Assembly (NCBI GenBank): GCA_902517865.1
Contig: CABYDT010000002.1
Location: forward strand, 62,001 to 126,000
DNA length: 64,000 nt
Direction: 5' to 3'
From: an uncultured Pelagibacteraceae bacterium
Lineage (GTDB): Bacteria; Pseudomonadota; Alphaproteobacteria; Pelagibacterales; Pelagibacteraceae
In this document: piece by piece, positions 7,574-64,000 of the stretch
Numbering within the stretch: position 1 is the stretch's first letter
Layout: the number at the start of each line of letters is the position of its first letter
Made by a program: the position numbers and the translations under genes
The notes under the pieces: generated by a model
What the model was told of the DNA's origin: nothing
The model's database searches: none
The model's input: the letters and a program-made list of their open reading frames with translations, nothing else

Positions 7574-7745
7574 TTAATTTCTTTTCAACTTCTATCGGAG
7601 AAAAATAAGCCTCCTGCAAATCAACATTCCAATATCTCAGCTCATTAAGTGGAATTTTTCTTTTTGAAACCGCACAAAATACGTAGTCTCCATCTTCTAC
7701 TATTTCAAATGAACCTTGTTTATATTTTAACTTAGCCTCTGTCAT
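7560..7745 (-). CDS. DUF2093 family small protein
   Basis: A 61-residue protein matching the alphaproteobacterial DUF2093 family. Diagnostic stretches are YKQGSFEIVEDGDYVFCAV and IPLNELRYWNVDLQEAY. Its function is unknown. In alphaproteobacteria it is commonly found next to xseA, as here, where it overlaps xseA by 14 bases upstream and the M23 gene by 14 bases downstream. It probably depends on translational coupling. Confidence 0.85.
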   Translation of the reverse strand: MTEAKLKYKQGSFEIVEDGDYVFCAVSKRKIPLNELRYWNVDLQEAYFSPIEVEKKLNEKA

Positions 7746-8928: not shown

Positions 8929-8949
8929 AATTATATTTAAAGGTTTTAC

Positions 8950-10212
8950 ATGAAGGTAGCAATAATTGGAAGTGGGGGTAGAGAGCATTCTATTTGCTAT
9001 AAACTTAAACAATCAAAAAATCTCAAAAAACTTGTATGTATACCTGGTAATGCAGGAACAGCTCAAATTTGTGAAAATTTAAATGTTGATATATCAAATT
9101 TTAATCAACTGTATGACGAATTAAAAAAAAACGAGATTGATATAGTTATTGTAGGTCCAGAAGTTCCTCTCGTTGAAGGTATAAAAGATTTTTTAGAGGA
9201 AAAATGTATAAAAGTATTTGGTCCTTCTAAAAAAGCATCTCAACTTGAGGGGTCTAAACTATTTTTAAAGAATTTTTGTTCTGAATTTAAAATTCCATCA
9301 GCTCGGTTTCAAGAAGTAAAAAATTTAAGTGAGGCATCTGACTGTATTAATAAATTTGGTCTTCCAATTGTTGTGAAGTCAGATGGGTTAGCAGCAGGTA
9401 AAGGTGTTACTATTTGTAATAAAAAAGAAGAGGCACTTAATGATGTCAAAGCAATATTTAGTGGAAAATTTAAATCTTCAAAAAAGGTAATTTTAGAAGA
9501 ATTTTTAAAAGGAGAGGAAGCTAGTTATTTCGTTATTACCGATGGAGAAGATTTTTTACCAATAGGCACAGCACAAGATCATAAAAGAATATTTGAAAAT
9601 GATGTTGGTCCAAATACTGGCGGTATGGGTGCATATTCACCTTCCTATTTGATAACAGATGATATTGAGTCAAAAATAATTAATAGAATTATTAAACCTA
9701 CGTTGGCAGGAATGAAAAAGATTGGCTCACCTTTTTCAGGAATTTTATATGCCGGACTTATGATAAATAATGGCGATCCCAAATTAATAGAATACAACAT
9801 TAGATTTGGGGATCCAGAGTGTCAAATACTCATGATGAGAATGAAAAGTGACTTTCTTGAAATAGTAATAAATACGATTGAAAAAAATCTAAAAAACAAA
9901 AAGATAGAATGGTATGATTACCCGGGTATAACAATCGTAGCATCTAATAAAGGTTATCCAGGTGATTACGATAAAAGCACAGTCATAAAAAATTTAAATA
10001 AGATTGATCAGAATGAAAATATTCAAATTTTTCACGCTGGAACATCAAATGTTAATGGAGAAATTATCGCAATAGGTGGACGAGTATTAAATTCAACAGT
10101 CACAAACAAATCTCTGAAAATAGCTCGCGATGAAGCATTACGAGCTCTTGATAAATTAGAATGGGAAAATAAATATTATAGACGTGATATAGGATGGAGA
10201 GTAATAAAATAA
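8950..10212 (+). CDS. purD: phosphoribosylamine-glycine ligase PurD
   Basis: A 420-residue GAR synthetase, which joins phosphoribosylamine and glycine with ATP in purine synthesis. The N-terminus has the GSGGREHS motif, the ATP-grasp core has SDGLAAGKGV and GPNTGGMGAYSP, and IRFGDPECQ supplies metal-binding residues. The length is usual. Its stop directly abuts the stop of tadA on the other strand. The region upstream is only 21 bp, so its promoter must overlap xseA. Confidence 0.95.
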   Translation: MKVAIIGSGGREHSICYKLKQSKNLKKLVCIPGNAGTAQICENLNVDISNFNQLYDELKKNEIDIVIVGPEVPLVEGIKDFLEEKCIKVFGPSKKASQLEGSKLFLKNFCSEFKIPSARFQEVKNLSEASDCINKFGLPIVVKSDGLAAGKGVTICNKKEEALNDVKAIFSGKFKSSKKVILEEFLKGEEASYFVITDGEDFLPIGTAQDHKRIFENDVGPNTGGMGAYSPSYLITDDIESKIINRIIKPTLAGMKKIGSPFSGILYAGLMINNGDPKLIEYNIRFGDPECQILMMRMKSDFLEIVINTIEKNLKNKKIEWYDYPGITIVASNKGYPGDYDKSTVIKNLNKIDQNENIQIFHAGTSNVNGEIIAIGGRVLNSTVTNKSLKIARDEALRALDKLEWENKYYRRDIGWRVIK

Positions 10213-10674
10213 TTATCTTTTGTTTTTAAAAAAATTTTTAAGCAATTTCTCATACTCTAGAGATTTAAATCCATAGTACAATTTAGGTTTCTTGGAAATT
10301 TTTTTATCATAAATTAATTTATGATTATTAACTAACGCCCCACTTTTTTGGTCTTCAATAAAAAAATATACTCTTTTAAATCTAGCGTTTAATATTATAG
10401 ATGCGCACATTAAACATGGTTCTAGAGTAGTGAATAAATACATATCGTCAAATCGATAATTCTTAACTTTTTTTGCAGCCTTTTTAATTGCAACTATTTC
10501 AGCATGACCCAGCGGATCACTTTTTGACTTGCATACATTGTGGGCTTTACTAATAATTTTATTTTTTTTCGGACAAAATATTATAGCTGATATTGGTATT
10601 TCATTTTCATTGTAAGCTTTTTTTGCTAATTTAATTAAACTATTAAATATTTTATCAAAGTGATTTTGAACCAT
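10213..10674 (-). CDS. tadA: tRNA-specific adenosine deaminase TadA
   Basis: A 153-residue zinc deaminase that converts adenosine 34 of tRNA-Arg(ACG) to inosine. The HAE catalytic/zinc motif (GHAEIVAI) and the PCLMC zinc motif (EPCLMCASIILNAR) are both present. A general cytosine or guanine deaminase is possible, but the ARFKRV region after PCxxC and the length fit TadA. Its ATG overlaps the ATG of the divergent rluB gene in the palindrome CATG at 10672-10675, so each gene's leader lies inside the other. Confidence 0.85.
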   Translation of the reverse strand: MVQNHFDKIFNSLIKLAKKAYNENEIPISAIIFCPKKNKIISKAHNVCKSKSDPLGHAEIVAIKKAAKKVKNYRFDDMYLFTTLEPCLMCASIILNARFKRVYFFIEDQKSGALVNNHKLIYDKKISKKPKLYYGFKSLEYEKLLKNFFKNKR

Positions 10675-11404
10675 GACAAAAGAGAGAATAGCTAAATTTC
10701 TTGCAAATTACAATTGTGGATCTAGAAGAGAGATTGAGAGATTGATTTTAAAAAATAAAATTAGGGTCAATGGAAAAACTATATTATCTCCACTATGCTT
10801 TGTAGATAAAAATGATGAAATTTATATAGATAGTAAGAAAATTTCTTTTCAAAAAAAAATTGAAATTCTGAAACTCTATAAGCCGATTAATTATATTTGT
10901 TCAAAAAGAAAACAAGATAAACGTAAAATAATATACGAATTAATTAGTACTAAATATAAAAATTATATATTTGCAGGCAGACTTGATATTAATAGTGAGG
11001 GGTTAATTATTTTGACCAATTCAAGTAAGGTAACTCAAAACTTAGAAAACCCAAAAAATAAGTTTAAAAGGACTTATCACGTAAAAGTTTACGGAGACTT
11101 AAATCTAAAAAAATTAAAAGAAAAATCAAAAGGATTTATTTATAAAAATATCAGATACAAATCTTTTAATTATAAGATTTTAGGCGATGTAAAAAGAAAT
11201 ACATGGATCGAACTAGATCTATTTGAAGGAAAAAAAAATGAAATAAGACAGATTTTTAGATCTATAAACCTTGCGGTAAATAAATTAAAAAGAATTAGTT
11301 ATGGACCGTTTCGCTTAGATAAATTAAATCCAGCTCAAATTAATATTGCTAGTGCTAAAGAAATAAGTTTTTATGAGAGTCATATCAGGAAAATTCAAAG
11401 GTAA
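10673..11404 (+). CDS. rluB: 23S rRNA pseudouridine synthase (RluB/RsuA family)
   Basis: A 243-residue protein with an N-terminal S4 RNA-binding domain (about residues 1-60, with CGSRREIERLI) and a catalytic domain containing the active-site Asp in GRLDINSEGLIIL (about residue 103). The family includes RluB, RluE, RluF and RsuA. The S4 domain and alphaproteobacterial context favour RluB, which acts on 23S U2605. The C-terminus overlaps rsmD by 32 bases in another frame, so two rRNA-modifying enzymes are made from one transcript. Confidence 0.85.
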   Translation: MTKERIAKFLANYNCGSRREIERLILKNKIRVNGKTILSPLCFVDKNDEIYIDSKKISFQKKIEILKLYKPINYICSKRKQDKRKIIYELISTKYKNYIFAGRLDINSEGLIILTNSSKVTQNLENPKNKFKRTYHVKVYGDLNLKKLKEKSKGFIYKNIRYKSFNYKILGDVKRNTWIELDLFEGKKNEIRQIFRSINLAVNKLKRISYGPFRLDKLNPAQINIASAKEISFYESHIRKIQR

Positions 11405-11924
11405 AAAATTAATATTACCAGATGCTCAAACGACAAGACCACTAAGAGATTTCGTTAAAGAAAATATATTTAATTTAATTATGCATTCTAAAGAGATTAA
11501 ATTTAATTTTCGAAATTCGAATATATGTGATTTATTTGCAGGCTCGGGGTCTTTTGGAATTGAGTATTTATCTCGCGATGCCAAACATGTGACATTCGTA
11601 GAGCAAAATAAAAGTGTCTTAAAAATTCTAAAAAACAACATTTTGAAAATTCAATCCCAGTCAAATTGCGAGATAATAGAAAATGATGTATTGCATTTTT
11701 TAACTACCAGAAAATTGGGAATAAATTTCAATTTGATATTTATTGATCCTCCCTACCAATTTAAAAAAGTGGATGAAATATTTAAATTAATCACCAACAA
11801 TTTTAGAAGTAATATAATAATTTTCCACACACACGTTAAAAATAAATTAATTTTACCTAATAAACTAAATATTTTGATTGATAAAACCTATGGTATTTCA
11901 AGAATAATGTTTTTAAAAAACTAA
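11373..11924 (+). CDS. rsmD: 16S rRNA (guanine966-N2)-methyltransferase RsmD
   Basis: A 183-residue class I methyltransferase. It begins MRVISGKFKGKKL, a classic RsmD start, has TRPLRDFVKENIFN, the SAM loop DLFAGSGSFGIEYLSR and the catalytic FIDPPY motif. It methylates G966 of 16S rRNA. It overlaps rluB by 32 bases, and its stop overlaps that of the convergent pgi by 4 bases. Confidence 0.92.
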   Translation: MRVISGKFKGKKLILPDAQTTRPLRDFVKENIFNLIMHSKEIKFNFRNSNICDLFAGSGSFGIEYLSRDAKHVTFVEQNKSVLKILKNNILKIQSQSNCEIIENDVLHFLTTRKLGINFNLIFIDPPYQFKKVDEIFKLITNNFRSNIIIFHTHVKNKLILPNKLNILIDKTYGISRIMFLKN

Positions 11925-13126
11925 TTTTTAATAGTTTTAATTTTTATTTCTTCTACAGCTGGTTGATCGTAAGGATTTATATTTTGGGCCTCGCCTAATA
12001 TTATTGTTTCAAGAAAATAATATAAAAATAATTGCAAAATATTAAGTTTGTTATTTCCAATTGTTATTGTTCTAAATGGTATATTTTTTTCAATAAAAAC
12101 CTTTTGAATTGCATTGTACTGTGAATTAATTAATTCTTGGGGAGTCTGATTTTCTATATTAGTAAAATTTAATTTATCGAATTTAGAAAAGTGCTTATTT
12201 TCTGCAGGTGGGAAGATTGTGAAATAATTATCCTTTGGTCCGTCAAGGTACAATTGAGCCATACTATGGTGATCTCTAGGACAAATTGAATAAAGAGGTG
12301 TTAAACCTTCATTGTTTTTACCAAGACTTTCAGCATGTAACTGATTAAACCAATCTCCAAAAAAACTTAGTTTTTCATCATAAAATAAATTTATATTTTT
12401 TTTTATCATTTTAGTTTTTGTAATAGTCATAATAATTGCGGAATTGACAATTGCAGAATTAAAATCTTCGCCTAGAAAATCATCAAACTTACATGTCGTC
12501 GCTACATCAGTCTCACTTAAATTTGAAGGTAAAATTCCTGTCTCAGAGAAAAAGGAATATCTCCCTCCAATCTTTTTATTATGAATAATTAATCTAACAT
12601 TATTTTTTTTTGCAAAATTGTATAAATTATTATCACTTTCTTCAGTAATGCACGTCATTTTAGAAAAAAGCTTTTCGAGAGAATTAATTTTTTTTGCGTG
12701 CTGATAGAGTAAATTTAGTGCAGCCAAAGTTTCAAAAGTATTTCCAGATTTTGATATTAAATAAATAGAATAATCTAAAATATCTTTTTTAGATAATAAT
12801 TCGTTAATTTTTGAATAATTTAAATTGTCAATAAATAAATAATTTTGATCAGTATATTCTGTGAAACTTTTAAGACCTGCTGTCGATCCGCCAATTCCTA
12901 TGATAAGTTTTTTTTTTGATTTATCTAGTTGATTTTTTAAAGAGAATATTTTTGATTGGTAAGCTTGAGTTAAAGAATTAAAAATTTCATTTTGGTTACT
13001 ATTTATTTCTTCTTTAATTTTTGCGCCTATGTTTTTGCAAGTTTTCAGATTATTATCGTAATGTATTTTTTGATCTTTATCTAAAAAATTTTTGAAAAAG
13101 CTATTTAAATTAATTTCAATTGTCAT
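11921..13126 (-). CDS. pgi: glucose-6-phosphate isomerase, short form
   Basis: A 401-residue protein with PGI/SIS features: IGIGGSTAGLKSF in the N-terminal sugar-isomerase domain, SKSGNTFET, GGRYSFFSE, and a C-terminal NPYDQPAVEEIK. It interconverts glucose 6-phosphate and fructose 6-phosphate. It is clearly shorter than the roughly 550-residue E. coli enzyme, so it belongs to a compact PGI group; strongly reduced insertions fit genome streamlining. It overlaps the lipoprotein gene upstream by 4 bases (ATGA). Confidence 0.88.
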   Translation of the reverse strand: MTIEINLNSFFKNFLDKDQKIHYDNNLKTCKNIGAKIKEEINSNQNEIFNSLTQAYQSKIFSLKNQLDKSKKKLIIGIGGSTAGLKSFTEYTDQNYLFIDNLNYSKINELLSKKDILDYSIYLISKSGNTFETLAALNLLYQHAKKINSLEKLFSKMTCITEESDNNLYNFAKKNNVRLIIHNKKIGGRYSFFSETGILPSNLSETDVATTCKFDDFLGEDFNSAIVNSAIIMTITKTKMIKKNINLFYDEKLSFFGDWFNQLHAESLGKNNEGLTPLYSICPRDHHSMAQLYLDGPKDNYFTIFPPAENKHFSKFDKLNFTNIENQTPQELINSQYNAIQKVFIEKNIPFRTITIGNNKLNILQLFLYYFLETIILGEAQNINPYDQPAVEEIKIKTIKN

Positions 13127-13440
13127 TTAATTTTTTTCAAAAGATCTTCTTCAAGACTCTTTGTCGTATTAGATACTGGACCCGAATTCTGAACATCTAA
13201 AACCTTATCTGGTGTTAAAGATTTATTTAATATTTGAGTTAGTGTCTCTTTTTTTTTCTTTTTTTTAAAACTACCTGGTTCTATGAGATTATAATCTGGC
13301 GGAAGTTCAAGACTACTCCTTTTTTCGATTAAAAACTCATCTGGTCTTACTTTCTCAAAGCCTAATCCTCTCTTAACTTCCTGACAAGAAGATGTAATAA
13401 TAAAAATAATAATATAAATAAAGATAACAATTTTATTCAT
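13123..13440 (-). CDS. DUF3035 (BamF-like) lipoprotein
   Basis: A 105-residue lipoprotein with a short signal peptide and lipobox (IITSSCQ; lipidated Cys at about residue 19). The DUF3035 region has KVRPDEFLIEKRSSLELPPDYNL. In Caulobacter the family member BamF belongs to the outer-membrane beta-barrel assembly complex, so a role there is likely by family. I chose the ATG at 13440, because the upstream alternative at 13470 would put ten charged residues before the signal peptide. It follows lspA, whose product processes such lipoproteins. Confidence 0.8.
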   Translation of the reverse strand: MNKIVIFIYIIIFIITSSCQEVKRGLGFEKVRPDEFLIEKRSSLELPPDYNLIEPGSFKKKKKKETLTQILNKSLTPDKVLDVQNSGPVSNTTKSLEEDLLKKIK

Positions 13441-13919
13441 CTGTCTTTTCCTTGCCTTTGATAAGTTCATTAATTAACAAAAGAATAATTCCAATTGTTA
13501 TTGAGATATCAGAAACATTAAAAACAAACCAGTGAAAATTATTATAATGTAAATCAATAAAATCTGGTACGGCCTGATAATACAATCTATCGAAAAAATT
13601 ACCTAAAGCTCCCCCAAGCAAAATAGACAAACATATTTTTTCAAAAATCTTGTTAGATGTAATAATCATATAAACTATGAAACCTAATATTATGAAAATT
13701 GCTAAAGATATCATGTGATAAGTTAGGTTTTCACTATCAAAAAAACCAAATGCAATTCCTTTATTCCAAATTAAAATAAAGTTTAGGAAGGGATTTATAT
13801 AATACTCGTTTTGACCACTAGAAAAAAAGTTAATGATCCAAATTTTACTTATACGATCTAACAAAAAATTTATAGTAATAATAAATAAAACTAAAATATT
13901 TTGTTTAAATTTTAATTGG

Positions 13920-16701
<2,782 letters not shown>

Positions 16702-16709
<8 letters not shown>

Positions 16710-17625
16710 TTTTTAAAATTCTTCGTGTTTTATCAATATCATACTTTATTTGTTTTTTGAGCATTTCTATGGACATAAATTTTTTTTCACCTCTAATAAA
16801 CTTGATAAATTGAACCTCTATTACCTTTCCATACAAATTATTTATTTTATTGAAAATAAAACACTCTAATACTAATTTTTTTCTTTTAAAAGTTGGTGCA
16901 TATCCAAAATTTGCAATACCTTTGTATACTTTTTTTTGAAATAAAATTTTGACAGCATACACTCCTACTTTAGGATTTAATCTATTTTTTAATTCAATGT
17001 TGGCAGTTCTGTAACCAATTTTTCTTCCAACTTTCCTGCCTTGCAAAACTTTTTCTTTCACTGACCAAAACCTGTTTAATGATTTCTTTACTTCAAGTAC
17101 TTTGCCCTGCATTATTTTTTTCCTAATTTTAGACGAAGAAATTTTACCATCGTATCGGTTAACAATTTCAGCGCCTGTAACTTTTATATTTAGTGGTTTT
17201 AAAGTTTTTTTTAAAAAATTTACGTTTCCTTTTCTTTTTTTTCCAAATCGGAATTCCTTTCCAACAATTATATGACTCATATTAATTTTCTTTAAAAGGA
17301 TCTTGCTTATAAAATCTTGAGGAGAACTATTCCTTAAGTTTTTATTAAAATTTAGAAAGATAATATAATCTAAACCTAATTTGGCGGCTAAATTTATCTT
17401 TTCATTATTACTAATTAATTTGTAGTTATAATTTTTTGTAAAATACTCGTAAGGAAGAGGATTAAAAGTAAGAATTCCAAATTTCTTTTTATTGTTTTTT
17501 GCAATTTGTTTGCCTGCTTTTATTATAGATTGATGACCTATATGAAAACCATCAAAATTCCCTATGGCTAAAATAGATTTTTTTGTAATTTTATTATTAC
17601 TAATTCCCTGTAAAACTTTTACCAT
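16702..17625 (-). CDS. ribF: bifunctional riboflavin kinase / FAD synthetase
   Basis: A 307-residue RibF that makes FMN and then FAD. The N-terminal nucleotidyltransferase domain has GNFDGFHIGHQSI and GKEFRFGKKRKGN; the C-terminal flavokinase domain has GRKVGRKIGYRTANIEL and GVYAVKI, the variant of the usual GRxLGFPTANI motif. It sits upstream of ileS and overlaps the HAD-IIA gene by 7 bases. Confidence 0.93.
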
Positions 17626-18479
17626 TTTAGATCCTTTTGATAAAAATTTGAATATACATTTTCAACATTGTTTGATTTACATAAATTTGTGAAATCGAAA
17701 TTATTATTATAGTCATAATCTTTATAAATGCCATTTAATATAAGCATGGAGTCGATATTAAAATTATTCGCTCCCTTTATGTCAGTTTTTAAATTATCTC
17801 CGACTGCTAAAATTTTGTGTCTTGTACTGAATTCAATTTTAGGAAATTTATTTTTAATTCTATCTAAAGAAAAGCTGTATATACTTATAAAAGGTTTTCC
17901 AAAAAATAATACTTCTCCACCTAAATTACTATATATTTGAGCAATTTTACCCGCGCAATATTCTAATTTAGTTCCTCTACTAACTACTTCATCAGGGTTT
18001 GCACATATCATTTTTTTCTTATATTTTATATTTTCTTTCAAAAGTCTGTCGTAAATTTCAATTTCCTCTTCAGCATTATTTAATCCTGTACAAATAATTT
18101 CATCGCAATCTTGAATGCTTTTCGACAATTGGTTATTTTGGTTAAAAATATCACGATCTTTATCTGGTCCTAAGTGGTAAAACTTTTTAATTTTATTTTC
18201 TTCGAGATAATTCCTTGTTACGTCACCTGATGTAACAAGCTCATCAATCAAACTAAAGTCAAAGCCCATTTTAAGTAAAAAACTTTTCACAGTAGTAGAA
18301 GGTCTAGGTGCATTGGAAATTAACACGATAACTTTACCATGATTTTTAATATTTTTTAAAACCTCTATCGCGTTTTCAAAAATTTTTTTACCATTATGAA
18401 TAACGCCCCAAAGATCTATAAAAAATATGTCATACTTAACTATCAATTCTCTAACGCCAACTAGTTTTGAAGGATTCAT
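17619..18479 (-). CDS. HAD-superfamily class IIA hydrolase, TIGR01459-like
   Basis: A 286-residue HAD protein of class IIA (NagD-like cap). Motif I is FIDLWGVIHNG (nucleophile Asp; the usual second Asp of DxD is replaced by Trp), LISNAPRPST is motif II, and AVGDNLKTDIKGAN is motif IV. The DLWGVxHNG signature is that of the alphaproteobacterial TIGR01459 group, of unknown substrate. It is the first gene of the run leading to ribF, and it diverges from groES across a 177-bp spacer. Confidence 0.83.
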   Translation of the reverse strand: MNPSKLVGVRELIVKYDIFFIDLWGVIHNGKKIFENAIEVLKNIKNHGKVIVLISNAPRPSTTVKSFLLKMGFDFSLIDELVTSGDVTRNYLEENKIKKFYHLGPDKDRDIFNQNNQLSKSIQDCDEIICTGLNNAEEEIEIYDRLLKENIKYKKKMICANPDEVVSRGTKLEYCAGKIAQIYSNLGGEVLFFGKPFISIYSFSLDRIKNKFPKIEFSTRHKILAVGDNLKTDIKGANNFNIDSMLILNGIYKDYDYNNNFDFTNLCKSNNVENVYSNFYQKDLKW

Positions 18480-54509: not shown

Positions 54510-54599
54510 TGGCGGAGAGAGCGGGATTCGAACCCGCGAAAGAGTTGCCCCTTTACACACTTTCCAAGCGCGCGCCTTCAACCACTCGGCCATCTCTCC
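54510..54599 (-). tRNA. tRNA-Ser (GGA), 5' half supplied by the integrated element
   Basis: A 90-base type II tRNA: acceptor GGAGAGA with TCTCTCC, G73 and encoded CCA; anticodon loop TTGGAAA with GGA; long variable arm; T arm GGGTTCGAATCCC. The 5' half is repeated at 59927-59975, so it was replaced on insertion. Position 28 is now G, giving a G-U pair with U42, whereas the displaced copy has A and would form a normal A-U pair. The gene should still be functional. Confidence 0.93.
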
Positions 54600-54606
54600 A
54601 TCATCT
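54558..54606 (-). repeat. left attachment repeat, inside the intact tRNA-Ser
   Basis: From the anticodon stem-loop to the tRNA 5' end plus 7 flanking bases. It differs from the right copy at 54571 (C versus T at 59940) and 54579 (C versus A at 59948). Crossover was presumably near the anticodon loop, since the rest of this copy came from the element. Confidence 0.9.
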
Positions 54607-54893
54607 GGATAGAGATTAGCAGGAGGATAAAGCTACGATTATCGAACCTTTCTCTAACATTCTAATTACAGTTTATATCTTATAATAACCTAGATGTTAA
54701 TTACAAAGTAACGTCTGTTGACGTCCATGTGGAGTCACACAACGGCCGTAAAAGATTCGCGCGCTGTTGCGCGCTCAGCTTTTGTTCCTGGGGAGGTAAA
54801 AAGATACTAAGACCTTTTGTAAATTTGAAGTTCTTAAAATAGTCGATCCGGGTAAATACAATTATGTATAGATTATATTACGTATATTACTAA
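54607..54893. other. non-coding left end of the element
   Basis: No convincing gene. It holds TAACATTCTAA (54655-54665), whose exact reverse complement occurs at 59856-59866 near the other end, and TTGACGTCCA (54718-54727), matching TTGACGCCCA (59826-59835). It also has a GC-rich hairpin (GCGCGC TGTT GCGCGC, 54759-54774). The tRNA-Ser promoter must now lie here, since its natural upstream region was displaced. Integrase arm sites, a packaging site or a terminator are the candidates. Confidence 0.65.
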
Positions 54894-55157
54894 CTAATGG
54901 ACAATCTCTCGTTCTTTTTTGATATAATTTATTAGCTTATCATTACGTCTAATAAACTCTTTTGCAATTCGATGAAGTTCTCTCATCTCCTTTTGTTTTT
55001 TTTTAATAATGCCTAGTAGCTGTTTTATATCTTTGTCTTTCTCTAGTAATTCTTTTTGTTGTTTCTTGCATAACTTCTCTAATGCTTTGTAATCGACTCG
55101 ATTATGCTCACAAGGATATACGTAGACTCCGTTACTATTTATTCTCTTCTTTAGCAT
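54894..55157 (-). CDS. small coiled-coil protein of the satellite
   Basis: An 87-residue, strongly charged protein. The central part KQQKELLEKDKDIKQLLGII and the following KKKQKEMRELHRIAKE have heptad spacing of a coiled coil. I chose the ATG at 55157, which has GGAG about 10 bases upstream; an ATG at 55172 adds five residues. It overlaps the terminase-like gene by 23 bases. It is the last gene of the operon. No family is recognised; a capsid-scaffold or adaptor role is only a guess. Confidence 0.65.
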   Translation of the reverse strand: MLKKRINSNGVYVYPCEHNRVDYKALEKLCKKQQKELLEKDKDIKQLLGIIKKKQKEMRELHRIAKEFIRRNDKLINYIKKEREIVH

Positions 55158-55605
55158 TAATCCAATCTCCATAATCTTCGATTATTTTTTTCATCTTACC
55201 TTCTAACTCCTCTTCTGATGCATCAAGGATAGAGTGTCTATTCATCGTCATTAACTTATCAATATAAAATCCTGCACATTTACCACGTAACTCTTCTGCT
55301 CTAACCGCAACACCAATCATACCTTTTCTACGTGCCTCATCACGTAACTTACCTAAAAAAGAAATATGGTTAGGTTCTGATATTTTGTATTTCTCCAAAT
55401 ATTCAGATTTATATTTTGATATTTCATTTACTACGTTTGGGCATATTTTAGGGTTAGTTAATTCATATGCCCGTTGATATGCTGATCCATCTTCATATCC
55501 TGCACGTTTTGCACATTCTGTTTTTGTAAGTTCACCGTCAGACTCCACTAACAGACGTACAAATTCCTTTTGTTTATCTGTTAGTGGTTTATCAATCTTT
55601 TTCAT
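55135..55605 (-). CDS. terS: terminase small subunit-like protein
   Basis: A 156-residue protein. LTDKQKEFVRLLVESDG and TKTECAKRAGYEDGSAYQRA form a helix-turn-helix with the look of the Terminase_2 family, followed by LTNPKICPNVVNEI and AVRAEELRGKCAGFYIDK, the usual C-terminal oligomer helices. Phage TerS recognises the packaging site and hands DNA to TerL. There is no TerL here, so it may redirect a helper phage's packaging motor. It overlaps both neighbours by a few bases. Confidence 0.72.
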   Translation of the reverse strand: MKKIDKPLTDKQKEFVRLLVESDGELTKTECAKRAGYEDGSAYQRAYELTNPKICPNVVNEISKYKSEYLEKYKISEPNHISFLGKLRDEARRKGMIGVAVRAEELRGKCAGFYIDKLMTMNRHSILDASEEELEGKMKKIIEDYGDWINAKEENK

Positions 55606-55976
55606 CGTGACCTCTTATTCAATGCATTAATAATTACAGTTCCTATTCCAGATTGTAACTGACGTTGGAAATCATCTTGCATTGGCTGCATTGGTGGCAG
55701 CGTTTGTATGTTTTGTGCATCTATTCTCTTTTGCAAATCAATTAACATTTCAGCGACAGTGTTAGAAACAGGGGGTACGTTAGATACCTGTTTTGATTTT
55801 GATCGACCTCTACGTGGATCGTAGTAGCTTTTTTTTGAATCGTTTCTTGTCAAATAAGCCATTACGTTCTTATTGTAATAATCTGACGTTATATCATCAG
55901 GCACTTGTTTTACTTTATCTGCTCCATATTCTAGATCATCTATTGTAAAGTCTTTCATTCCTTTTTCTTTTTTCAT
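55602..55976 (-). CDS. satellite protein of unknown function, 124 residues
   Basis: Not recognised. The first third is acidic (DDLEYGADKVKQVPDDITSD), the middle has a basic YYDPRRGRSKSKQ stretch, then a Pro-rich linker (TLPPMQPMQDDF) and a C-terminal helix. The mix of disordered linker and basic patch could suit a DNA- or capsid-binding adaptor, but that is speculation. It overlaps the unknown gene upstream by one base and terS by 4. Confidence 0.6.
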   Translation of the reverse strand: MKKEKGMKDFTIDDLEYGADKVKQVPDDITSDYYNKNVMAYLTRNDSKKSYYDPRRGRSKSKQVSNVPPVSNTVAEMLIDLQKRIDAQNIQTLPPMQPMQDDFQRQLQSGIGTVIINALNKRSR

Positions 55977-56365
55977 TACTCTAACTCCGCTTTTAATTTA
56001 GCTAACTCGTCTCTTGCACTTTCAATAATGTATGCCTCGTAACTATTGGTCGGGGACAAAGAGGCAAGGAACTCGAGCTGACCAATTTGTGTATCCAGAT
56101 CGAATGGTTTTCCACCACCTTGCATTTCCTGTCTACGTTTATATTCCGCAAACATCTTCATAGATAAACCTAAACCTGGGTTCTCTTTTTCTATTAAAGA
56201 ATCTGCTCCGATAATCCCGCCATCAGCTTTTTTTATCTTTGGTTTGTCTTTTTGAAGTCTTCTATACTTTGCATCTTCAGCGACCATGCGCATAAAGTCC
56301 TCCATTATCTTGTTCAAACGTCTTGCACTTTCTGACATTGGAACAATAGGTTTCTTATCTGTCAT
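55976..56365 (-). CDS. satellite protein of unknown function, 129 residues
   Basis: Not recognised. It starts MTDKKPIVPMSESARRLNKI and has a basic stretch KDKPKIKKADGG, of the kind common in pelagic phage proteins, and a Gly/Pro-rich loop before LGQL-type helices (IGQLEFLASLSPTNSYEAY). Its start shares ATGA with the primase-helicase stop, so it is co-translated. Confidence 0.6.
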   Translation of the reverse strand: MTDKKPIVPMSESARRLNKIMEDFMRMVAEDAKYRRLQKDKPKIKKADGGIIGADSLIEKENPGLGLSMKMFAEYKRRQEMQGGGKPFDLDTQIGQLEFLASLSPTNSYEAYIIESARDELAKLKAELE

Positions 56366-58140
56366 ATTATATTCTCCTTATCTTTTTCTTTTTGTTTGTT
56401 TTGTATTTTGTAAAATTGTGATTTGGATATTGAGTGTTCTTCATGTTTCTTCATATCTTCAGTCCAGGAAGTATGACCCTCGTCTATCCAATACTGATAC
56501 GCTAATTCTTTCTTTGGTTTTGCTTTCTCTATTTCATAGTACGTCCACTCCGCATTATCTTCGCTAATACATGCAACGTAGTCTTTCTTATATTTTGCTA
56601 TTGCTTTACCTCTCAACTTCTCAACTGTAACAACCATCAAATGAACACGGCTCAAGGTGCACTGATCCTCTTCATTCTTTTCCGGTCTTCTCATTCTAAT
56701 ACTGCAATTAATCGGTCGCTCTTTCATATTAGAACCTGATGAGGTTCCAGTAGATTTAGTTTCGTGATGGAGGAAGATAATTGTATATCCATCACTTCGT
56801 AAATTAATTAACCATTGCATAAACGGTTTAACCTGAGCACCTTCTTTTTCATCAAGGGACGTTAAGTAAGTTAAGTTATCGAGTATGATAACGGGTTTAT
56901 CATTCCAACGTTCTTCTATTTGTTTAATGTTAGCCTCAAGTCTTTTTTGACCTGACTCAAAGTTAAGTGGATCAATACCACCGTTCATTTGCAAACCTAA
57001 CGTTATTAATTTTATTCTATCTGTATCGATAACGATTTTGCGATCTGAATAACTGGAAATAAATTCACACATACGTTCTTGTAAATCTGTTTCAGTCATC
57101 TCGCCGTCCACTATTAAAACTGGAGTTTTAGATTTGTTATGATTTTGGTATTTTAAGAAATCCAGGCCACTTGCTATGGATAACGTTAAACCCGCAGTAA
57201 ATAAGGTCTTTCCAACGCCTGTCTTGCCATATATCTGTGTGATGCTGCCTTTCTCAATTATTGGATATAATAGATATTCTTTTGGTGGAAATTCCTTTGC
57301 TATGAAATCAGTTAACGACAAAGCAGTGTATGGATCAACCTTATCAACCTTAACTTCGTTAATATAATTAAATATATTTCCAACGATACTTTTATCTACA
57401 TTAATAAATGATCCTAGTTCAGTTATTCCATATGTAGGTTTTTTATTATCGTAACCTTGTTTGATACGTTTAACTTTATCTTTCCTGTTTTTTATTTCTC
57501 CATCATTATTGTCGATGCATAGACGTTCAATAAAGTCTTCCATTTCATCAATACTTAATTTGGAATGACGAACCAAGCAGCCAGCAACACGCATAATATA
57601 ATCGTCTCTTTGACCTGCACCACTTTCAGGATAGTATTTTGATAGATACGTTAATGCACCAATCTTACCGACATTAAACAACAATGATTTATATTCGTTT
57701 TCATCATTTAATTTATATGGTTCAACGTCTTTAATAACTTTCCTACTATCAGCCAGGAACACGCTTTGAGTATTATGCAATACTTCAATTATCTTTTTAC
57801 CTTTACCTGGTGACCTATCTGCCTTGAATGCAAATAACTTTGTGTCTCCATCGTAAGAGTAAAATTGCTGATAACCCTTAACTGTTTTTATAGTTAACGT
57901 ATTATTCGGCAGCAAGCTGCGAAAGTTCCAAGCAGCAGCGTCATCGTAATCTACCGCAATGATATTAGATTCTTTGTGCATGATTCCTGCAGCACGGGCC
58001 ACGGCAAAATCATCATCTGTCCAATCAACGCCTTTCCAATGACCATTCTTTTCATGTGGTTTTTTTGTATCAGGATTAACCGGTACGAATTTAAGATTAT
58101 ACGTTTTATATTTATTTATTTGTTCGAGAAGATTATTCAT
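56362..58140 (-). CDS. primase-helicase replication protein
   Basis: A 592-residue protein. The first 270 residues look like a prim-pol/bifunctional primase domain (FVPVNPDTKKPHEKNG, the acidic IIAVDYDDAAAW near residue 60). The C-terminal half is a RecA-type ATPase: IYGKTGVGKTLFTAG (Walker A, about 304-311), IVDGEMTETD, VIILDNLTYL (Walker B, about 415) and FLHHETKS. The layout matches RepA/AAA_25-type helicases of satellites and phages. The element can thus probably start its own replication. The ATG at 58140 overlaps the upstream gene by 8 bases; one at 58155 is also possible. Confidence 0.82.
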   Translation of the reverse strand: MNNLLEQINKYKTYNLKFVPVNPDTKKPHEKNGHWKGVDWTDDDFAVARAAGIMHKESNIIAVDYDDAAAWNFRSLLPNNTLTIKTVKGYQQFYSYDGDTKLFAFKADRSPGKGKKIIEVLHNTQSVFLADSRKVIKDVEPYKLNDENEYKSLLFNVGKIGALTYLSKYYPESGAGQRDDYIMRVAGCLVRHSKLSIDEMEDFIERLCIDNNDGEIKNRKDKVKRIKQGYDNKKPTYGITELGSFINVDKSIVGNIFNYINEVKVDKVDPYTALSLTDFIAKEFPPKEYLLYPIIEKGSITQIYGKTGVGKTLFTAGLTLSIASGLDFLKYQNHNKSKTPVLIVDGEMTETDLQERMCEFISSYSDRKIVIDTDRIKLITLGLQMNGGIDPLNFESGQKRLEANIKQIEERWNDKPVIILDNLTYLTSLDEKEGAQVKPFMQWLINLRSDGYTIIFLHHETKSTGTSSGSNMKERPINCSIRMRRPEKNEEDQCTLSRVHLMVVTVEKLRGKAIAKYKKDYVACISEDNAEWTYYEIEKAKPKKELAYQYWIDEGHTSWTEDMKKHEEHSISKSQFYKIQNKQKEKDKENII

Positions 58141-58330
58141 CTGAATTCTCCTCAACTTCTTTTTCTAATTTTATTGTACTTTTAATTAGTCTTTCTTTGG
58201 TGTAGCCAGGCGCAACTGCTTGCATCATAGCCAGTGTTTGATCTTCGTCAAACATACCAAACGCAAGTGCTCTAGTGCCATGGGTTGGTATATCGGGTTT
58301 GATTAATACGTTGTAGTATCTTTTTGTCAT
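58133..58330 (-). CDS. small protein at the head of the satellite operon
   Basis: A 65-residue protein, MTKRYYNVLIKPDIPTHGTR at the start, then an acidic C-terminus (LEKEVEENSDE). The ATG at 58330 has a good AGGAG 8 bases upstream; a longer frame to 58366 lacks one. No helix-turn-helix is obvious. Being first after the repeat-rich spacer, it might be a regulator or replication accessory. Confidence 0.65.
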   Translation of the reverse strand: MTKRYYNVLIKPDIPTHGTRALAFGMFDEDQTLAMMQAVAPGYTKERLIKSTIKLEKEVEENSDE

Positions 58331-58366
58331 TAGTTTTCTCCTAAAATTAAATTTAAGAGCGGGCAA

Positions 58367-58822
58367 TAAAGGTGGGTATTATGTTGTTAACTCATATATG
58401 GACGCCACGAATAACACCCGCTCAATGAGATACTTACTAATGATGTAATGAGATATAACAGTTAACAGACCGTTTTACAAATTTATCATTATTAAATATC
58501 TGATTTTATTTTTGAGGAGTGTCTGTTCTGACCTCGCATGGTTTTGAGTTCCAAGAAACTTGATTCAGTTTTAATCTTTTTTGATTTGTTTTGCAAGTGA
58601 ACTCACTAATTTATTTTCAGAGTGATATGTCGAACAGTGTGCGCTAAGTCACTGTTTATTTATGTTTCTTGTTTCATGGCACAAGCAGCAAGGTGCACGG
58701 ATCAGTGATTTAACAGGCCCTCTTTGGCAGCATTTTGAGTCTCATAATATAGAACCCTATATAGATGAGACTATGAGACTATATATATAATTAAAGTCTT
58801 ACCGTCTCATTTACGTAGGTAT
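58367..58822. other. repeat-rich spacer upstream of the satellite operon (possible origin/operators)
   Basis: No gene over about 15 codons is found. GTCTCAT or its complement ATGAGAC occurs four times in 72 bases (58739-58745, 58765-58771, 58773-58779, 58804-58810), with AT-rich stretches between. An inverted repeat AACAGTG-10 bases-CACTGTT lies at 58633-58656, and AATGAGATA occurs twice around 58424-58455. Iterons for the replication protein, or operators for phage-dependent induction, are the likely meanings. Confidence 0.55.
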
Positions 58823-59809
58823 TTACTTTTGAGACCTCAATTTATTAGACAAATGTTTAGCTGATATGTTTGCATATTTTTTAACCATCTCAGCTGATGA
58901 CCACCCACCCTGTGCCATTAGTTCAACTGTACTCCAACCAGACTCAGCCAGGAATGTAGCCCCTGAATGTCGAATATCATGAAATCGAAAGTTACTAATA
59001 TTGGCCCTTTTAACTGCCCTTCTAAATTCCTTATCAATTATAGATATGGATATTTTAGGGAATATGCTGCCATCAATATTTCTAGGTAGATTTCTAATTA
59101 TCTCACAAGCTCTAACAGATAAACCAATACGTCTCTTTTTATTATTCTTAGTTACCATTAGCTGCGCTGTACCATCATTTAAATTACAGTCATTTATAGA
59201 TAAGTTAAGAACCTCACCTCTTCTGCATATAGTTTCAAATGCAAGTTCAACAATATACTTTAAATAGTACAAACTACTTTTTGAACATTCATGCAGTAAT
59301 CTTTTATATTCATCTGCTGTAAGTACCCTGTCTCTATGTTCTGGGTCTCTAGGTAATGATACAAGTTTAACTGGGTTGTTATTGATTGGAATACCCAACT
59401 CACGTTGTCCAATATTAAATACTCTACCAAGTAGCAGCAACTTCTTGCGTACAGTGGCAGGTGCATTATCTTTTGCTAATTCATTTTTTAATTTAGCAAT
59501 CTTAACTGGTGTTATTTGTGCTAGTGGTAGCTTAGCAATATCCAATCGACACATTGAGTCTATTTCATAAGTAAAGTTCTTTAGACGTCTAGAACTATCC
59601 TTAGTGTGATCGTAGTATAACTTGAGTAAATCTCTCAAGGTAATAGAAAACAATTTATCTCTATCTTGATATGATCCAGTCTCTAACTCAGTTAACGTTT
59701 TATGCCCCCAGGCGATGGCGCTGCTTTTTTTATGAAACGACTTTTGTAAACGGCTGCCTTTGTATCTCAAGCAACATTGATACAGGTTACCTCTTTTTCT
59801 AACATACAT
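58823..59809 (-). CDS. int: tyrosine-family site-specific integrase
   Basis: A 328-residue recombinase. The N-terminus MYVRKRGNLYQCCLRYKG is an arm-binding-type beta fold, then a SAM-like core-binding domain. Catalytic residues are Arg in ICRRGEVLNL (about 195), His-x-x-Arg in HDIRHSGATF (about 277-280), Trp in GGWSSAEM and the nucleophile Tyr in MVKKYANIS (about 311). The ATG at 59809 with AAGGAAA upstream is preferred to one at 59836. It lies next to the right repeat, as usual for tRNA integrases. Confidence 0.92.
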   Translation of the reverse strand: MYVRKRGNLYQCCLRYKGSRLQKSFHKKSSAIAWGHKTLTELETGSYQDRDKLFSITLRDLLKLYYDHTKDSSRRLKNFTYEIDSMCRLDIAKLPLAQITPVKIAKLKNELAKDNAPATVRKKLLLLGRVFNIGQRELGIPINNNPVKLVSLPRDPEHRDRVLTADEYKRLLHECSKSSLYYLKYIVELAFETICRRGEVLNLSINDCNLNDGTAQLMVTKNNKKRRIGLSVRACEIIRNLPRNIDGSIFPKISISIIDKEFRRAVKRANISNFRFHDIRHSGATFLAESGWSTVELMAQGGWSSAEMVKKYANISAKHLSNKLRSQK

Positions 59810-59926
59810 AACTTTTTCCTTTCTATTGACGCCCACACGACGTCCAGCTGTATTGTTAGAATGTTAATGTTTGATAAAAGCTAGAAAAGACGGGACAAAA
59901 ACGACAGAACACTTTGCAGGTTTCTC
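59810..59926. promoter_or_regulatory. integrase arm-site region at the right end
   Basis: Contains TTGACGCCCA (59826-59835) and GACGTCCA (59839-59846), and TTAGAATGTTA (59856-59866), the exact inverse of the left-end element. Their symmetric position 49 and 60 bases inside the two repeats suggests binding sites for the integrase N-terminus or an excisionase. Confidence 0.5.
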
Positions 59927-59975
59927 CACTTTCCAAGCGTGCGCCTTAAACCACTCGGCCATCTCTCCATCATCT
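59927..59975 (-). repeat. right attachment repeat: displaced native 5' half of tRNA-Ser
   Basis: The 5' half of tRNA-Ser with A28 and U in the D loop, and the last codons of the glycosyltransferase gene that flanked the tRNA before insertion (stop codon one base from the tRNA 5' end). It is not a functional tRNA. Confidence 0.9.
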
Positions 59976-60863
59976 AAATAACCTCAATATTGATCTAAAA
60001 TAAAATTTAGTTTTAAGTGCTAAAATTTTACTTTTGCTTTCTCCCTTATATTCTGAAATACTTTTACTAAACAAGTTATCTTTTTTATATTTGCACAAAT
60101 ATCTACCAGATAATTTCATTTTTTCTTTTCTATAAAAATAATTATTAGTAGCATGAATAGTAAAACAGCCAGGATGTAAATTGTTCTTTATTTTTGGAAT
60201 AACGGTCGCAGTATATCGGTCCATGTTTAGTCCATGCCAACCAGTAGCAGACATTTCAGTAATTCCATAAAAAGTTCTAAAATTTTTACCTTTCCATTTA
60301 AATTTCCACCACTTGGTTTTGATGAAATTTTTAAAGTCCTTTTGATCATATATCCAAAGACAATAATATGGAAATCCCACAATAAAATACTTAGTATTTT
60401 TAAAATCTATATATTCTTTTAGTTTATTCTGTAAGTGAAATGAATAATAATCTTTGATACCCTTTTCTAATACTAGAAAGCCAACATTTAACTTCTGATT
60501 TTTAAGAACTGAATTATATTTTAACCAATAATTAAAATTGTTTTTATTAAATAAAATATCATACTCTATATACATAAAAAAATTGTATTTATTTTTTTGC
60601 TGCTCCATTACATCTCTAACAGCCCAAGTTAAATAGCCTTTGCTAAGTTGATCTTTAGACAAGTTATGATGAACTAATTTACAATTTAATTTTTTATTTT
60701 TAAGAAAAGAGTCATGACAATGCACATAGATATCTTTTTTGATTGGTAATGTTTGAAGTGAATTTAGACTTTTCTTTAAAAAAAATAATTTTGTTTTATT
60801 AAGTGGCTTAATTTTTTCGTCAGGTTTCTCATTAAAAAAGGGAATGTGAATAGAAATTTTCAT
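59970..60863 (-). CDS. glycosyltransferase-like protein
   Basis: A 297-residue protein. It starts MKISIHIPFFNE, a GT-A type N-terminus, has KKDIYVHCHDS, FMYIEYDILFNKNNFNYWL with an Asp-containing DxD-like position, and GWHGLNMDRYTATVIPK. It resembles putative glycosyltransferases of unassigned family. The stop codon lies inside the attachment repeat, so its last codons belong to the repeat. Before insertion it was one base upstream of tRNA-Ser. Confidence 0.7.
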   Translation of the reverse strand: MKISIHIPFFNEKPDEKIKPLNKTKLFFLKKSLNSLQTLPIKKDIYVHCHDSFLKNKKLNCKLVHHNLSKDQLSKGYLTWAVRDVMEQQKNKYNFFMYIEYDILFNKNNFNYWLKYNSVLKNQKLNVGFLVLEKGIKDYYSFHLQNKLKEYIDFKNTKYFIVGFPYYCLWIYDQKDFKNFIKTKWWKFKWKGKNFRTFYGITEMSATGWHGLNMDRYTATVIPKIKNNLHPGCFTIHATNNYFYRKEKMKLSGRYLCKYKKDNLFSKSISEYKGESKSKILALKTKFYFRSILRLFR

Positions 60864-60946
60864 TTCGGATCTTATATTATAAATATATAACCAAATATAT
60901 GATTATATTAATTGATAAAATTAGCGAAAAATATTATTAAAAATTG

Positions 60947-61912
60947 ATGAAAATATTTATTACAGGAGGCGCTGGTTTTATTGGGTCACATATATGTGAA
61001 AAACTATATGAGAGTATACCAAAATCAAAACTTTTAATTTTAGATAAATTGACATATGCAGCTAATAAAAGTTTTTTGTCAAAAATTTTAATAGATAAAA
61101 AAAGAGTTAAATTTTTACAGGCCGATATTATAAATAGTAATAAGTATACAAATCTCATAAAAAATTTTGATTTGGCAATAAACGTTGCTGCCGAAAGTCA
61201 TGTGGATAGATCTTTTACAAACTCAACATTATTTACAAAGACAAATACTTTTGGAGCGCATATTTTTTTTCAAAATTGTTTAAACGCAAAAGTTAAAAAA
61301 ATTATTCATGTAAGTACAGATGAAGTTTACGGTGAAAAATTATCCGGAAGTTTTAAGGAAAATGATAAACTGAATCCAACAAATCCTTACTCTGCTTCCA
61401 AAGCGGCTGCAGAAATAATAATAAATTCTTACAAGTATCACCTTAAATCAAATATTTTAATTGTTCGAGGAAATAACATTTTTGGCAATCGACAATACCC
61501 CGAAAAGTTAATTCCTTCGTGTATTTATAACGTATTAAAAAACAAGCCAATTAAACTTCATGGAAATGGTAAAAATATAAGGTGTTACTTGTCTGTTTAT
61601 GATTTTGCTGATGCGATTTATTTACTAATTAAAAAAAATAAGATTGGAACCTACAATATTGGTAATAATAAATATTTTAAAAATATAGAAATTGCAAAGT
61701 TAATTTGTAAAGCTTTAAATGTTAACCCAAGAAAATACATTAAATTTGTCAAAGATAGGCCCTTTAATGACAAAAGATATTCCATTAATATTTCTAAAAT
61801 AAAAAGTATAGGTTGGAAACCTAAAAGAGATTTAAGAAATGAGATAGAAAATATTATTAGTTGGTATTCAAAAAATTATAAAATCTTCAAGCTTAAGATA
61901 TCCAATCTTTAA
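60947..61912 (+). CDS. rfbB: dTDP-glucose 4,6-dehydratase
   Basis: A 321-residue SDR. FITGGAGFIGSHICEKL (intact GxxGxxG), DKLTYAANKSFLSK, AAESHVDRSF, HVSTDEVYGE (Thr-Asp-Glu), NPYSASKAAAEI (Tyr-x-x-x-Lys) and RGNNIFGNRQYPEKLIP follow the RmlB pattern. It makes dTDP-4-keto-6-deoxyglucose for rhamnose and related sugars. The ATG at 60947 is chosen; a TTG one codon earlier is also in frame. It ends with a 20-base overlap with the convergent GT17 gene. Confidence 0.9.
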   Translation: MKIFITGGAGFIGSHICEKLYESIPKSKLLILDKLTYAANKSFLSKILIDKKRVKFLQADIINSNKYTNLIKNFDLAINVAAESHVDRSFTNSTLFTKTNTFGAHIFFQNCLNAKVKKIIHVSTDEVYGEKLSGSFKENDKLNPTNPYSASKAAAEIIINSYKYHLKSNILIVRGNNIFGNRQYPEKLIPSCIYNVLKNKPIKLHGNGKNIRCYLSVYDFADAIYLLIKKNKIGTYNIGNNKYFKNIEIAKLICKALNVNPRKYIKFVKDRPFNDKRYSINISKIKSIGWKPKRDLRNEIENIISWYSKNYKIFKLKISNL

Positions 61913-62705
61913 ATATATTTTTATTATGTAAAATATACTCTGGTAAATATGTATTGTTCATTGGAATTTTTTTAAATTTCTTGTCCCTCTCATATAAATC
62001 TTCAAGATTATTAATTTTATTCTTTATTTGCTCAATATTTTTATATTTATCTAAATTAAATTCTTGATGAGGAGATGAACTAATTTTATTAGCTATTTCC
62101 TCAGCAGTCATCAAATAGGAAAAATGCCAACCGCCTTGATCAATCTTAAAACTTTTTTTAAATTTATCAAAACGCCAAAACGGTAAAAAAGAATTTTTAA
62201 GAACAACGCTTCGTAATTTCTTGAAACTTTTCAAATTTTTCTTTAATATAACTCTACTTCCTTCCCAGTGATTTTCATATGAAGTAAGAATATTTAATCT
62301 ATAATAATATAAATATTGTAAAAATATTCCTACATATCCATCCTTTAATTTATTTTTATAATGTTCACTAAAACATGATAGGTTAGGAATTTCATCAGCA
62401 TCGGAAAAAATTATAATATCATTGTCATTTGCTTTTGATAGTCCTTTTAATAGAAAATCTCTTTGGTAATCTTGTCTCTGCCAACCTGAAAAATTTTTAG
62501 GAAAATTATCTAATTTAAGATATATTATTTTATTTTTGAATTCCTCAACTGCATCAATATCAAATTTATAATTTTTTCTCCTCCCCATATGATCTTCTCC
62601 GGACTCACATATAACAAAGAAATCAACGTAGTTATTTAAGGTATTTAACCTTATTTTAGTAAGCAAATTTTCATTATTAAAAATAAAACAATCAAATATT
62701 TTCAT
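61893..62705 (-). CDS. glycosyltransferase family 17 protein
   Basis: A 270-residue protein that begins [20 protein letters not shown] and has FFVICESGEDHMGRRKNY, IIIFSDADEIPNLSCF with a DAD metal motif, and GGWHFSYLMTAEEIANKI. These are the signatures of GT17 (beta-1,4-N-acetylglucosaminyltransferase-like) proteins. It likely adds a sugar to LPS or capsule. It shares bases with the lepA stop. Confidence 0.85.
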   Translation of the reverse strand: MKIFDCFIFNNENLLTKIRLNTLNNYVDFFVICESGEDHMGRRKNYKFDIDAVEEFKNKIIYLKLDNFPKNFSGWQRQDYQRDFLLKGLSKANDNDIIIFSDADEIPNLSCFSEHYKNKLKDGYVGIFLQYLYYYRLNILTSYENHWEGSRVILKKNLKSFKKLRSVVLKNSFLPFWRFDKFKKSFKIDQGGWHFSYLMTAEEIANKISSSPHQEFNLDKYKNIEQIKNKINNLEDLYERDKKFKKIPMNNTYLPEYILHNKNIFKDWIS

Positions 62706-64000
62706 TAACTATCTTTATTGATTTTTAACACGCCAATAAAAGCTTCCTGGGGAATTTCAACACTTCCAAATTGCTTCATTCTAGCTTTACCTTTTTTTTG
62801 TTTATCTAAAAGCTTTCTTTTTCTGTCTCTGGCACCCCCACCATGAATTTTGGTAAGTACATCTTTTTTATAGCCTTTTATAGTTTCCCTAGCTACAATT
62901 TTTCCTCCAAGAGCGGCTTGAATTGGTATTTGAAATTGATGTCTTGGTATTAAATCTTTTAATTTTTCACAAACTAATCGACCTTGTTTTGCTGCAAAAT
63001 CTTTATGAATAATCATAGACAAGGCATCTACTGGTTCTGAATTAACTAGTATACTTAACTTTGTTAAATTTCCTGGTTGATAACCTAAAAGTTCATAATC
63101 AAAACTGGCATAACCGCTTGATATTGATTTAATCCTGTCGTAAAAATCAAAAACAACTTCATTTAAAGGCATTTCATATTTTAATACCGCGCGCGATCCT
63201 GAGTAGCTTAAGTTTTTTTGAATACCTCTTTTTTCTTCACATAGCTTTATTATCGAGCCTAAATACTCGTCCGGGGTAATCAATGTTGCACTAATCCAAG
63301 GTTCATTTATCTCTTTTATTAAATTTGGTTCAGGCATATTGGAAGGATTTTGTAAATCAATTGTCTCTCCGTCATTTTTTTCTAGTTTGTAAACTACTCC
63401 AGGTGTAGTTGTGATTAAATTAATACCATACTCTCTGCTTAATCTTTGTACTACAATTTCAAGATGTAATAAGCCCAAAAACCCACATCTAAATCCCAAT
63501 CCTAATGCTGAAGAATTTTCAGGTTCATAAGAGATAGATGAGTCATTTAGTTTTAATTTTGCGATACTATCCTTTAATAAACTATATTCAGAACTATCTA
63601 CCGGAAACAAACCACAAAATACAACAGGTTTACTAGGCTTAAATCCAGGTAACGGCTTATCAGTTGGGAGTTTTGCGTGAGTAATTGTATCTCCAACTTT
63701 TGTGTCTGAGAGATCTTTAATACCAGTTACTATAAAACCAATTTCACCCGGGCCAATTTCATCACAATCTACAGGCTTTGGTGTAAAAAATCCTACTTTT
63801 TCTACTTGGTATTTTGATCCAGAAGACATCATCATAATTTGATCATTTCTTTTTATTTTACCATCTATCACACGTACTAAAGTAACAACACCAAGGTAAC
63901 TATCATACCAACTATCAACTAATAAAGCTGATAATTTATTTTCTAAAATTCCTGAAGGAGATGGAAGTTTATTAATTATAGTAGATAAAATTTTATCAAC
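62705..64000 (-). CDS. lepA: elongation factor 4 (LepA), C-terminal part
   Basis: The 3' 431 codons of a minus-strand gene that runs out of the window at 64000; the GTP-binding domain is missing here. Seen are [18 protein letters not shown] (domain II, translated by hand from bases 64000-63872), [34 protein letters not shown], the C-terminal LepA domain with [17 protein letters not shown], and [19 protein letters not shown]. LepA acts on ribosomes during stalled or stressed translation. A GTG at 63871 is not the start. Confidence 0.95.

Follow-up and report, generated by a model that had tools for sequence, protein, structure and literature searches.

The 64,000-nucleotide stretch of DNA analysed here (the window; positions 62,001 to 126,000 of contig CABYDT010000002.1, from an uncultured Pelagibacteraceae bacterium) carries, in a tRNA-Ser gene, an element of about 5.4 kb that is most likely a minimal phage satellite of SAR11. 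It encodes its own replicative helicase and a terminase small subunit (TerS) of the SAR11-phage type, and nothing for building a virion. The kind of element is well supported, phages of the HTVC027P/HTVC023P type are its probable helpers, and a hairpin with an AACA loop is a candidate packaging site. What is new here is that this hairpin is common to the satellites and to one lineage of HTVC027P-type phages. SAR11 ranks with the most abundant groups of cells in the ocean, and it is infected by the HTVC023P/HTVC027P-type phages, a widespread lytic group. A culturable candidate helper type, together with a named candidate packaging site, would make phage parasitism in SAR11 testable.

An earlier note, made from the letters of the window, had already proposed a phage satellite-like element at this place. 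Relatives with the same core cassette and a TerS that groups with those of SAR11 phages support that reading.

Gene content and TerS

The element comprises seven genes, all on the minus strand. The integrase gene is followed by a 456-bp gap and then by six genes, and overlaps are found at five of the six junctions, i.e. between every neighbouring pair past the gap. The overlaps and the lack of virion structural genes had both been noticed earlier and both hold: no capsid, portal or TerL gene was found in the element (open reading frames, PHROGs), and the TerL and capsid of HTVC027P have no match in the source genome (962,553 bases in 16 contigs, 86% complete). The integrase and the TerS-like protein announced by the earlier note are likewise recovered (PF00589; PHROG 51 and Terminase_2), with four small proteins without assignment.

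Sequence, profile and fold all confirm the identity of TerS. Profile comparison relates it to small terminases of solved structure (SF6, 1.2e-7), small terminases are among the best fold matches of its AlphaFold model (mean pLDDT 82.4), and the top match is the SF6 DNA-binding domain, superposed over 56 residues at an rmsd of 1.4 (Z 9.1). Four of 50,697 phage records match this TerS. They include both cultured HTVC023P-type phages; the pelagiphage HTVC027P (42%, 4e-22) provides the best annotated match, and HTVC023P (35%) is also among them. From IMG/VR, 80 relatives, 41–97% identical to the HTVC027P TerS, were also kept. Most of the IMG/VR relatives are located on contigs of HTVC027P-type phages, and many of the contigs carry relatives of the HTVC027P TerL (30), exonuclease (54) or other neighbours. 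All eight satellite TerS lie on the same side of a branch (99/72) in a TerS tree, with HTVC023P and L067 as their neighbours. HTVC027P is an obligately lytic pelagiphage (PMC12753301), and the genomes of HTVC023P-type phages average 58.8 kb (PMC9599517).

Related elements in SAR11

Profile searches covering about 400 genomes from the family and the order found the full-length helicase in three, source genome included; TerS was found in 8/397 genomes. Relatives of the element occur in other genomes. These type A elements, defined by the core order integrase, small gene(s), helicase, TerS and small gene, comprise the window element, L013 (G055, AG-343-E17), L014 (G243, AG-919-L02), its near copy L102 (AG-905-P17), and the IMG/VR contig L021. 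L013, L014 and L102 come from three other SAR11 genomes and are all located at tRNA-Met; L013 and L014 use 3' parts of the tRNA, unlike the window element. The layout of the latter also differs from that of the other type A elements: a single small gene precedes the helicase, and two lie between it and TerS. Identities to the window proteins are low (27–34% for helicases, 27–29% for integrases), and the core cassette and non-coding blocks are kept among divergent elements whose proteins are 27–47% identical.

L021 (6,071 bp) has a 99-base perfect terminal overlap and therefore represents a circle or a head-to-tail repeat. Its attP carries nucleotides 1–42 of a tRNA-Val(UAC), which match the gene of four SAR11 genomes exactly. 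No virion genes were seen in L013, L014 or L021.

Elements of a second type, type B (L016, L017, L018 and the circular L148, 9,078 bp), encode a different integrase and a family A DNA polymerase. They are about 9 kb long and satellite-like, with a TerS, and no virion genes were recognised in them; L018 and L016 carry nucleotides 1 to 40–45 of tRNA-Met. TerS is common to types A and B, and some type A elements also have in common with type B a protein with a CxxC...CxxC motif and two further small proteins. The four small proteins of the window element could be matched to none of the three. In L018 (G417, 1715-17700), three copies of tRNA-Met delimit two tandem elements, the second at about 10.67–17.65 kb. 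The circular contigs L021 and L148 are both opened within TerS at nearly the same place, which may be due to chance or be the trace of a packaging cut.

A hairpin shared by satellites and phages

In satellites of both types, the last gene is followed by a hairpin with a fixed AACA loop and a GC-rich stem: GGCCGC-AACA-GCGGCC in L014, GGCTGC-AACA-GCAGCC in L021, GTCATGC-AACA-GCATGAC in L148, GGCCC-AACA-GGGCC in L018 and four copies in L016. Shuffles give an expectation below 0.01 per element. Among 13 sequences chosen and registered by the loop, of which ten come from satellites and three from phages, 89% of cells are paired and 6/7 pairs are changed on both sides; sliding the stem partners lowers pairing to at most 44%. 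As the sequences were picked by their loop, its constancy is by construction, but the covariation of the stem is not a product of the alignment. The motif TAGTATCTTTT lies tens of bases ahead of the hairpin in the window element, L021 and L018; elsewhere it occurs six times in 2.25 Mb, counted on both strands.

One lineage of HTVC027P-type phages also has the AACA hairpin, located about 170–220 nt upstream of TerL (e.g. L038, L083, L046). A complete scan of IMG/VR for GGAGnnGCGCAACAGCGCnnC gave 34 stretches, 21 of which complete the stem. Fifteen of these 21 are on contigs with an HTVC027P-type TerL, and five of the six others belong to one family of terminator-like sequences. For the form GAGnnnnGCAACAGCnnnnCGA, at least eight loci among the matches listed in the two scans complete the stem, seven on HTVC027P-type TerL contigs and one in the satellite L148. 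The enrichment on TerL contigs is partly due to near-identical phages from a single lineage; the core hairpin sequence is present upstream of TerL in 14/37 distinct phage contigs. Many HTVC027P-type phages carry a GC-rich hairpin with other stems and loops about 170–250 nt upstream of TerL (e.g. L083, 2840-3190).

Because types A and B share TerS and the hairpin while their replication genes differ, the hairpin may be part of the packaging site. It could also be a control element of another kind. A role as intrinsic terminator was considered and rejected: the copy in the window has a weak T tract, and those of L014 and L021 have none.

Replication module

The protein first described as a primase-helicase keeps the second half of that name, according to AAA_25 and the RepA profile; the first half is unproven, no primase domain being detected. 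Its C-terminal half is of the RepA/KaiC type, with a profile match to RepA of RSF1010 (1.8e-7). Its N-terminal half has no match, and Pfam found no primase domain in any of the five helicases. The AlphaFold model of the helicase was unusable (mean pLDDT 44). Its relatives were recovered with alignment-based (profile) searches, which did better than single-protein scans; the latter found nothing in viral and genome contigs. No relative occurs in the 50,697 phage records, and those in other Alphaproteobacteria match the C-terminal helicase half only.

The gap between the integrase gene and p77, the gene of a 77-residue protein, shares exact blocks of 12–15 bases with L014 and L021 (TAGTCTCATAGTCTC; TGCGAGGTCAGA..AGACACTCC; TACATCATTAGTAA). 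As these blocks stay exact despite proteins only about 30% identical, the gap is likely an origin or control region.

Boundaries and insertion site

The element is inserted site-specifically at tRNA-Ser via the 5' half of the gene, and its tyrosine integrase gene is intact, with residues R205, H286, R289 and Y321 conserved in an alignment. The end points given by the earlier note (54558-59975) proved exact: they are bounded by a 49-base direct repeat (54558-54606 and 59927-59975; 47/49 identical) containing the 5' half of tRNA-Ser(GGA) and 7–8 bases upstream of it. The intact tRNA occupies minus-strand positions 54510-54599, so that the element abuts its 5' end, an unusual placement. In G001, a SAR11 genome of the same genus, the site is empty: tRNA-Ser (locus L139) is directly adjoined by the homologue of window positions 59927-62706 (80% over 2.8 kb), starting with a homologue of the glycosyltransferase encoded at 59970-60863, which abuts the tRNA-Ser. 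Therefore, the far-side flank is identified as native. The element is richer in GC (34.9%) than the remainder of the window (29.1%).

When a bacterial tRNA gene serves as attB, it is still expressed, with very few exceptions, from the original promoter, and use of the 5' half has rarely been encountered in bacteria (PMC8371274). The elements described here provide a repeated bacterial case of it. A promoter scan listed no convincing sigma-70-like promoter just upstream of the rebuilt tRNA-Ser.

Partial copies of tRNA-Ser near the intact gene in the SAR11 genomes G001, G027, G032, G060, G061, G064, G073 and G076 indicate an integration hotspot. On the opposite side of the same tRNA-Ser in G001 (L139, 960-2503) are a 3' fragment of the tRNA and a 404-residue protein matching the PDC-S36, TmtA and PD-T4-1 defence models, i.e. 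a small, perhaps defensive, second island at the hotspot.

Features of the element in window coordinates (aa, amino acids)
Feature	Coordinates	Strand	Evidence or remark
Intact host tRNA-Ser(GGA), rebuilt at one element end	54510..54599	-	ARAGORN, Rfam
tRNA-side attachment repeat (tRNA-Ser 5' half and few upstream bases)	54558..54606	-	47/49 match to 59927-59975
GC-rich hairpin GCGCGC-AACA-GCGCGC, candidate packaging site	54759..54774	-	
TAGTATCTTTT motif shortly before hairpin, common to L021 and type B L018	54799..54809	-	
92-aa charged protein, overlaps TerS by 38 nt	54894..55172	-	
Terminase small subunit (TerS), 156 aa	55135..55605	-	PHROG 51 1.1e-8; Terminase_2 1.8e-5; profile and fold
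124-aa protein, no family assigned	55602..55976	-	
129-aa protein, no family assigned	55976..56365	-	
Replicative helicase, 597 aa	56362..58155	-	AAA_25 2.4e-24; RepA of RSF1010 by profile
77-aa protein (p77), no family assigned	58133..58366	-	
Non-coding gap, 456 bp, candidate origin/control region	58367..58822	-	Shares conserved blocks with relatives
Tyrosine recombinase (integrase), 337 aa	58823..59836	-	PF00589 1.2e-29; phrog_1 1.1e-59
Far-side attachment repeat; outer flank is the native tRNA-Ser upstream region	59927..59975	-	G001 (L139) comparison

The small proteins

The 92-residue protein is probably a coiled coil. In the 129-residue protein, KKADGGIIG weakly resembles KKADGGRIG of HTVC027P gp41, encoded by the gene after TerL (L149, 21952-23403); motifs similar to the latter recur in other proteins of HTVC027P-type phages. 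A match of the 129-residue protein to a protein of L019 (E 0.002) was discounted, as that protein turned out to be a DNA polymerase. The small genes had been proposed to encode capsid or helper-interference factors. Nothing in them pointed to capsid remodelling or to a known defence: NCBIfam names none of them, PADLOC finds no defence system in them, and no gene for capsid-size redirection was recognised, the four proteins being without assignment. With the same proviso, Pfam, PHROGs and NCBIfam gave no match to a regulator of the Stl/Rpr/AlpA type, to alpA or to fis.

Proposed cycle and alternative explanations

Infection by a lytic HTVC027P/HTVC023P-type pelagiphage would trigger excision of the element. 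Replication would start at the conserved gap between integrase gene and p77, using the RepA-type helicase and a polymerase of the helper or the host. TerS would then bind at the AACA hairpin or in its surroundings and load concatemers onto the TerL of the helper, whose particles (genomes near 58.8 kb) could carry about 10–11 satellite copies into new SAR11 cells, a number that is arithmetic from 5.37 kb per unit and not evidence. The four small proteins would likely act as regulators or interference factors.

Several points weigh against a satellite with this cycle. Helper dependence, induction, packaging and transfer are inferred from the sequence. No excisionase or regulator was recognised in the element. 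Its TerS is less than 50% identical to that of any sequenced phage, and several long branches flagged by the tool make its exact placement in the tree uncertain. The hairpin is imperfect in L013, none was found in L017, and neither HTVC027P itself nor most other phages of its type have the AACA form.

Among the alternatives, the one with most weight, though we consider it unlikely, keeps the satellite and assigns it a helper outside the HTVC027P/HTVC023P type. The moderate identity to known TerS, the lack of the AACA hairpin in HTVC027P and the many further phage groups of SAR11 would fit this. The four TerS-matched phage records with both cultured HTVC023P-type phages among them, and the 15/21 stem-complete matches on TerL contigs of this type (complete scan, one hairpin form), argue for the HTVC027P/HTVC023P type. 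Less probable still is a self-sufficient, plasmid-like integrative element that spreads by other routes and whose 'TerS' is a DNA-binding regulator of replication or transcription. Its RepA-type helicase resembles the plasmid type, the helix-turn-helix domain of TerS could bind the hairpin for regulation, and a circular contig alone is no proof of virions. Against this, TerS is terminase-like beyond that domain and groups with pelagiphage TerS, type B retains TerS and the hairpin with another replication gene (DNA polymerase A), and the hairpin also lies beside TerL in phages.

It is very improbable that the element is the remnant of a decayed temperate phage that retained integrase, helicase and TerS, because the same core cassette occurs in three other SAR11 genomes and in a circular IMG/VR contig. 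All three kinds of genes do occur in phages, and the other small genes are without assignment. Nevertheless, every gene is open and overlapping, the att repeats are intact, the phage records hold no relative of the helicase, and cassette and non-coding blocks are kept in elements with 27–47% protein identity, at other tRNAs and on a circle. Capsid, portal or TerL genes in relatives, which the earlier note regarded as telling against a satellite, were not found, nor was any sign of a prophage remnant.

Taken as a phage satellite, the element may belong to a wider family, a proposal that we hold as tentative, at slightly less than even confidence. Its members would have interchangeable replication genes, either for a RepA-type helicase or for DNA polymerase A, and be united by the TerS lineage and the covarying AACA hairpin, a packaging signal shared with one lytic HTVC027P-type lineage. 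They would often integrate through the 5' half of a tRNA gene, the host tRNA depending on the element for its upstream region.

Comparison with known satellites

The tycheposons of Prochlorococcus are marine, tRNA-borne elements of streamlined bacteria that encode a tyrosine recombinase; they are likened to the window element by description, not by sequence. Marine bacterial phage satellites are already known, i.e. virion-encapsidated integrative mobile elements (VEIMEs), tycheposons and phage-inducible chromosomal minimalist islands (PICMIs) (PMC11389934, PMC10803314). VEIMEs are, like the element, marine, small and satellite-like, with a tyrosine recombinase, but they are defined by recovery from virions (virus-size particles), in which they are often concatemers, whereas the element and its circular relative L021, an IMG/VR contig, are known here from their sequences. 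Charybdis elements, 4.6-kb marine circles, are also small and some are integrated beside tRNAs; they have an archaeal host and lack a terminase or replication gene (PMC12324425).

The PICMIs of Vibrionaceae resemble the element in having few genes and no capsid-remodelling gene, and in being satellites of virulent phages that form concatemers. The PICMI model requires int, alpA, primase and fis, and PICMIs have yielded no terS (PMC10803314); the element has TerS and no match to alpA or fis, and thus falls outside that definition. As a formal label, phage-inducible chromosomal island (PICI), which the earlier note had invoked, is not supported, since no PICI-typical regulator (Stl/Rpr/AlpA type) was recognised; nor was a capsid-size gene. 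All genes lie on one strand, and four of the proteins are without assignment. The element also differs from PICIs by its size of 5.4 kb, its SAR11 host and its obligately lytic candidate helper. With those PICIs that carry TerS, similar to the Staphylococcus aureus pathogenicity islands (SaPI-like), it nevertheless shares an integrase, a replication module, a TerS without TerL and a gene content free of virion genes.

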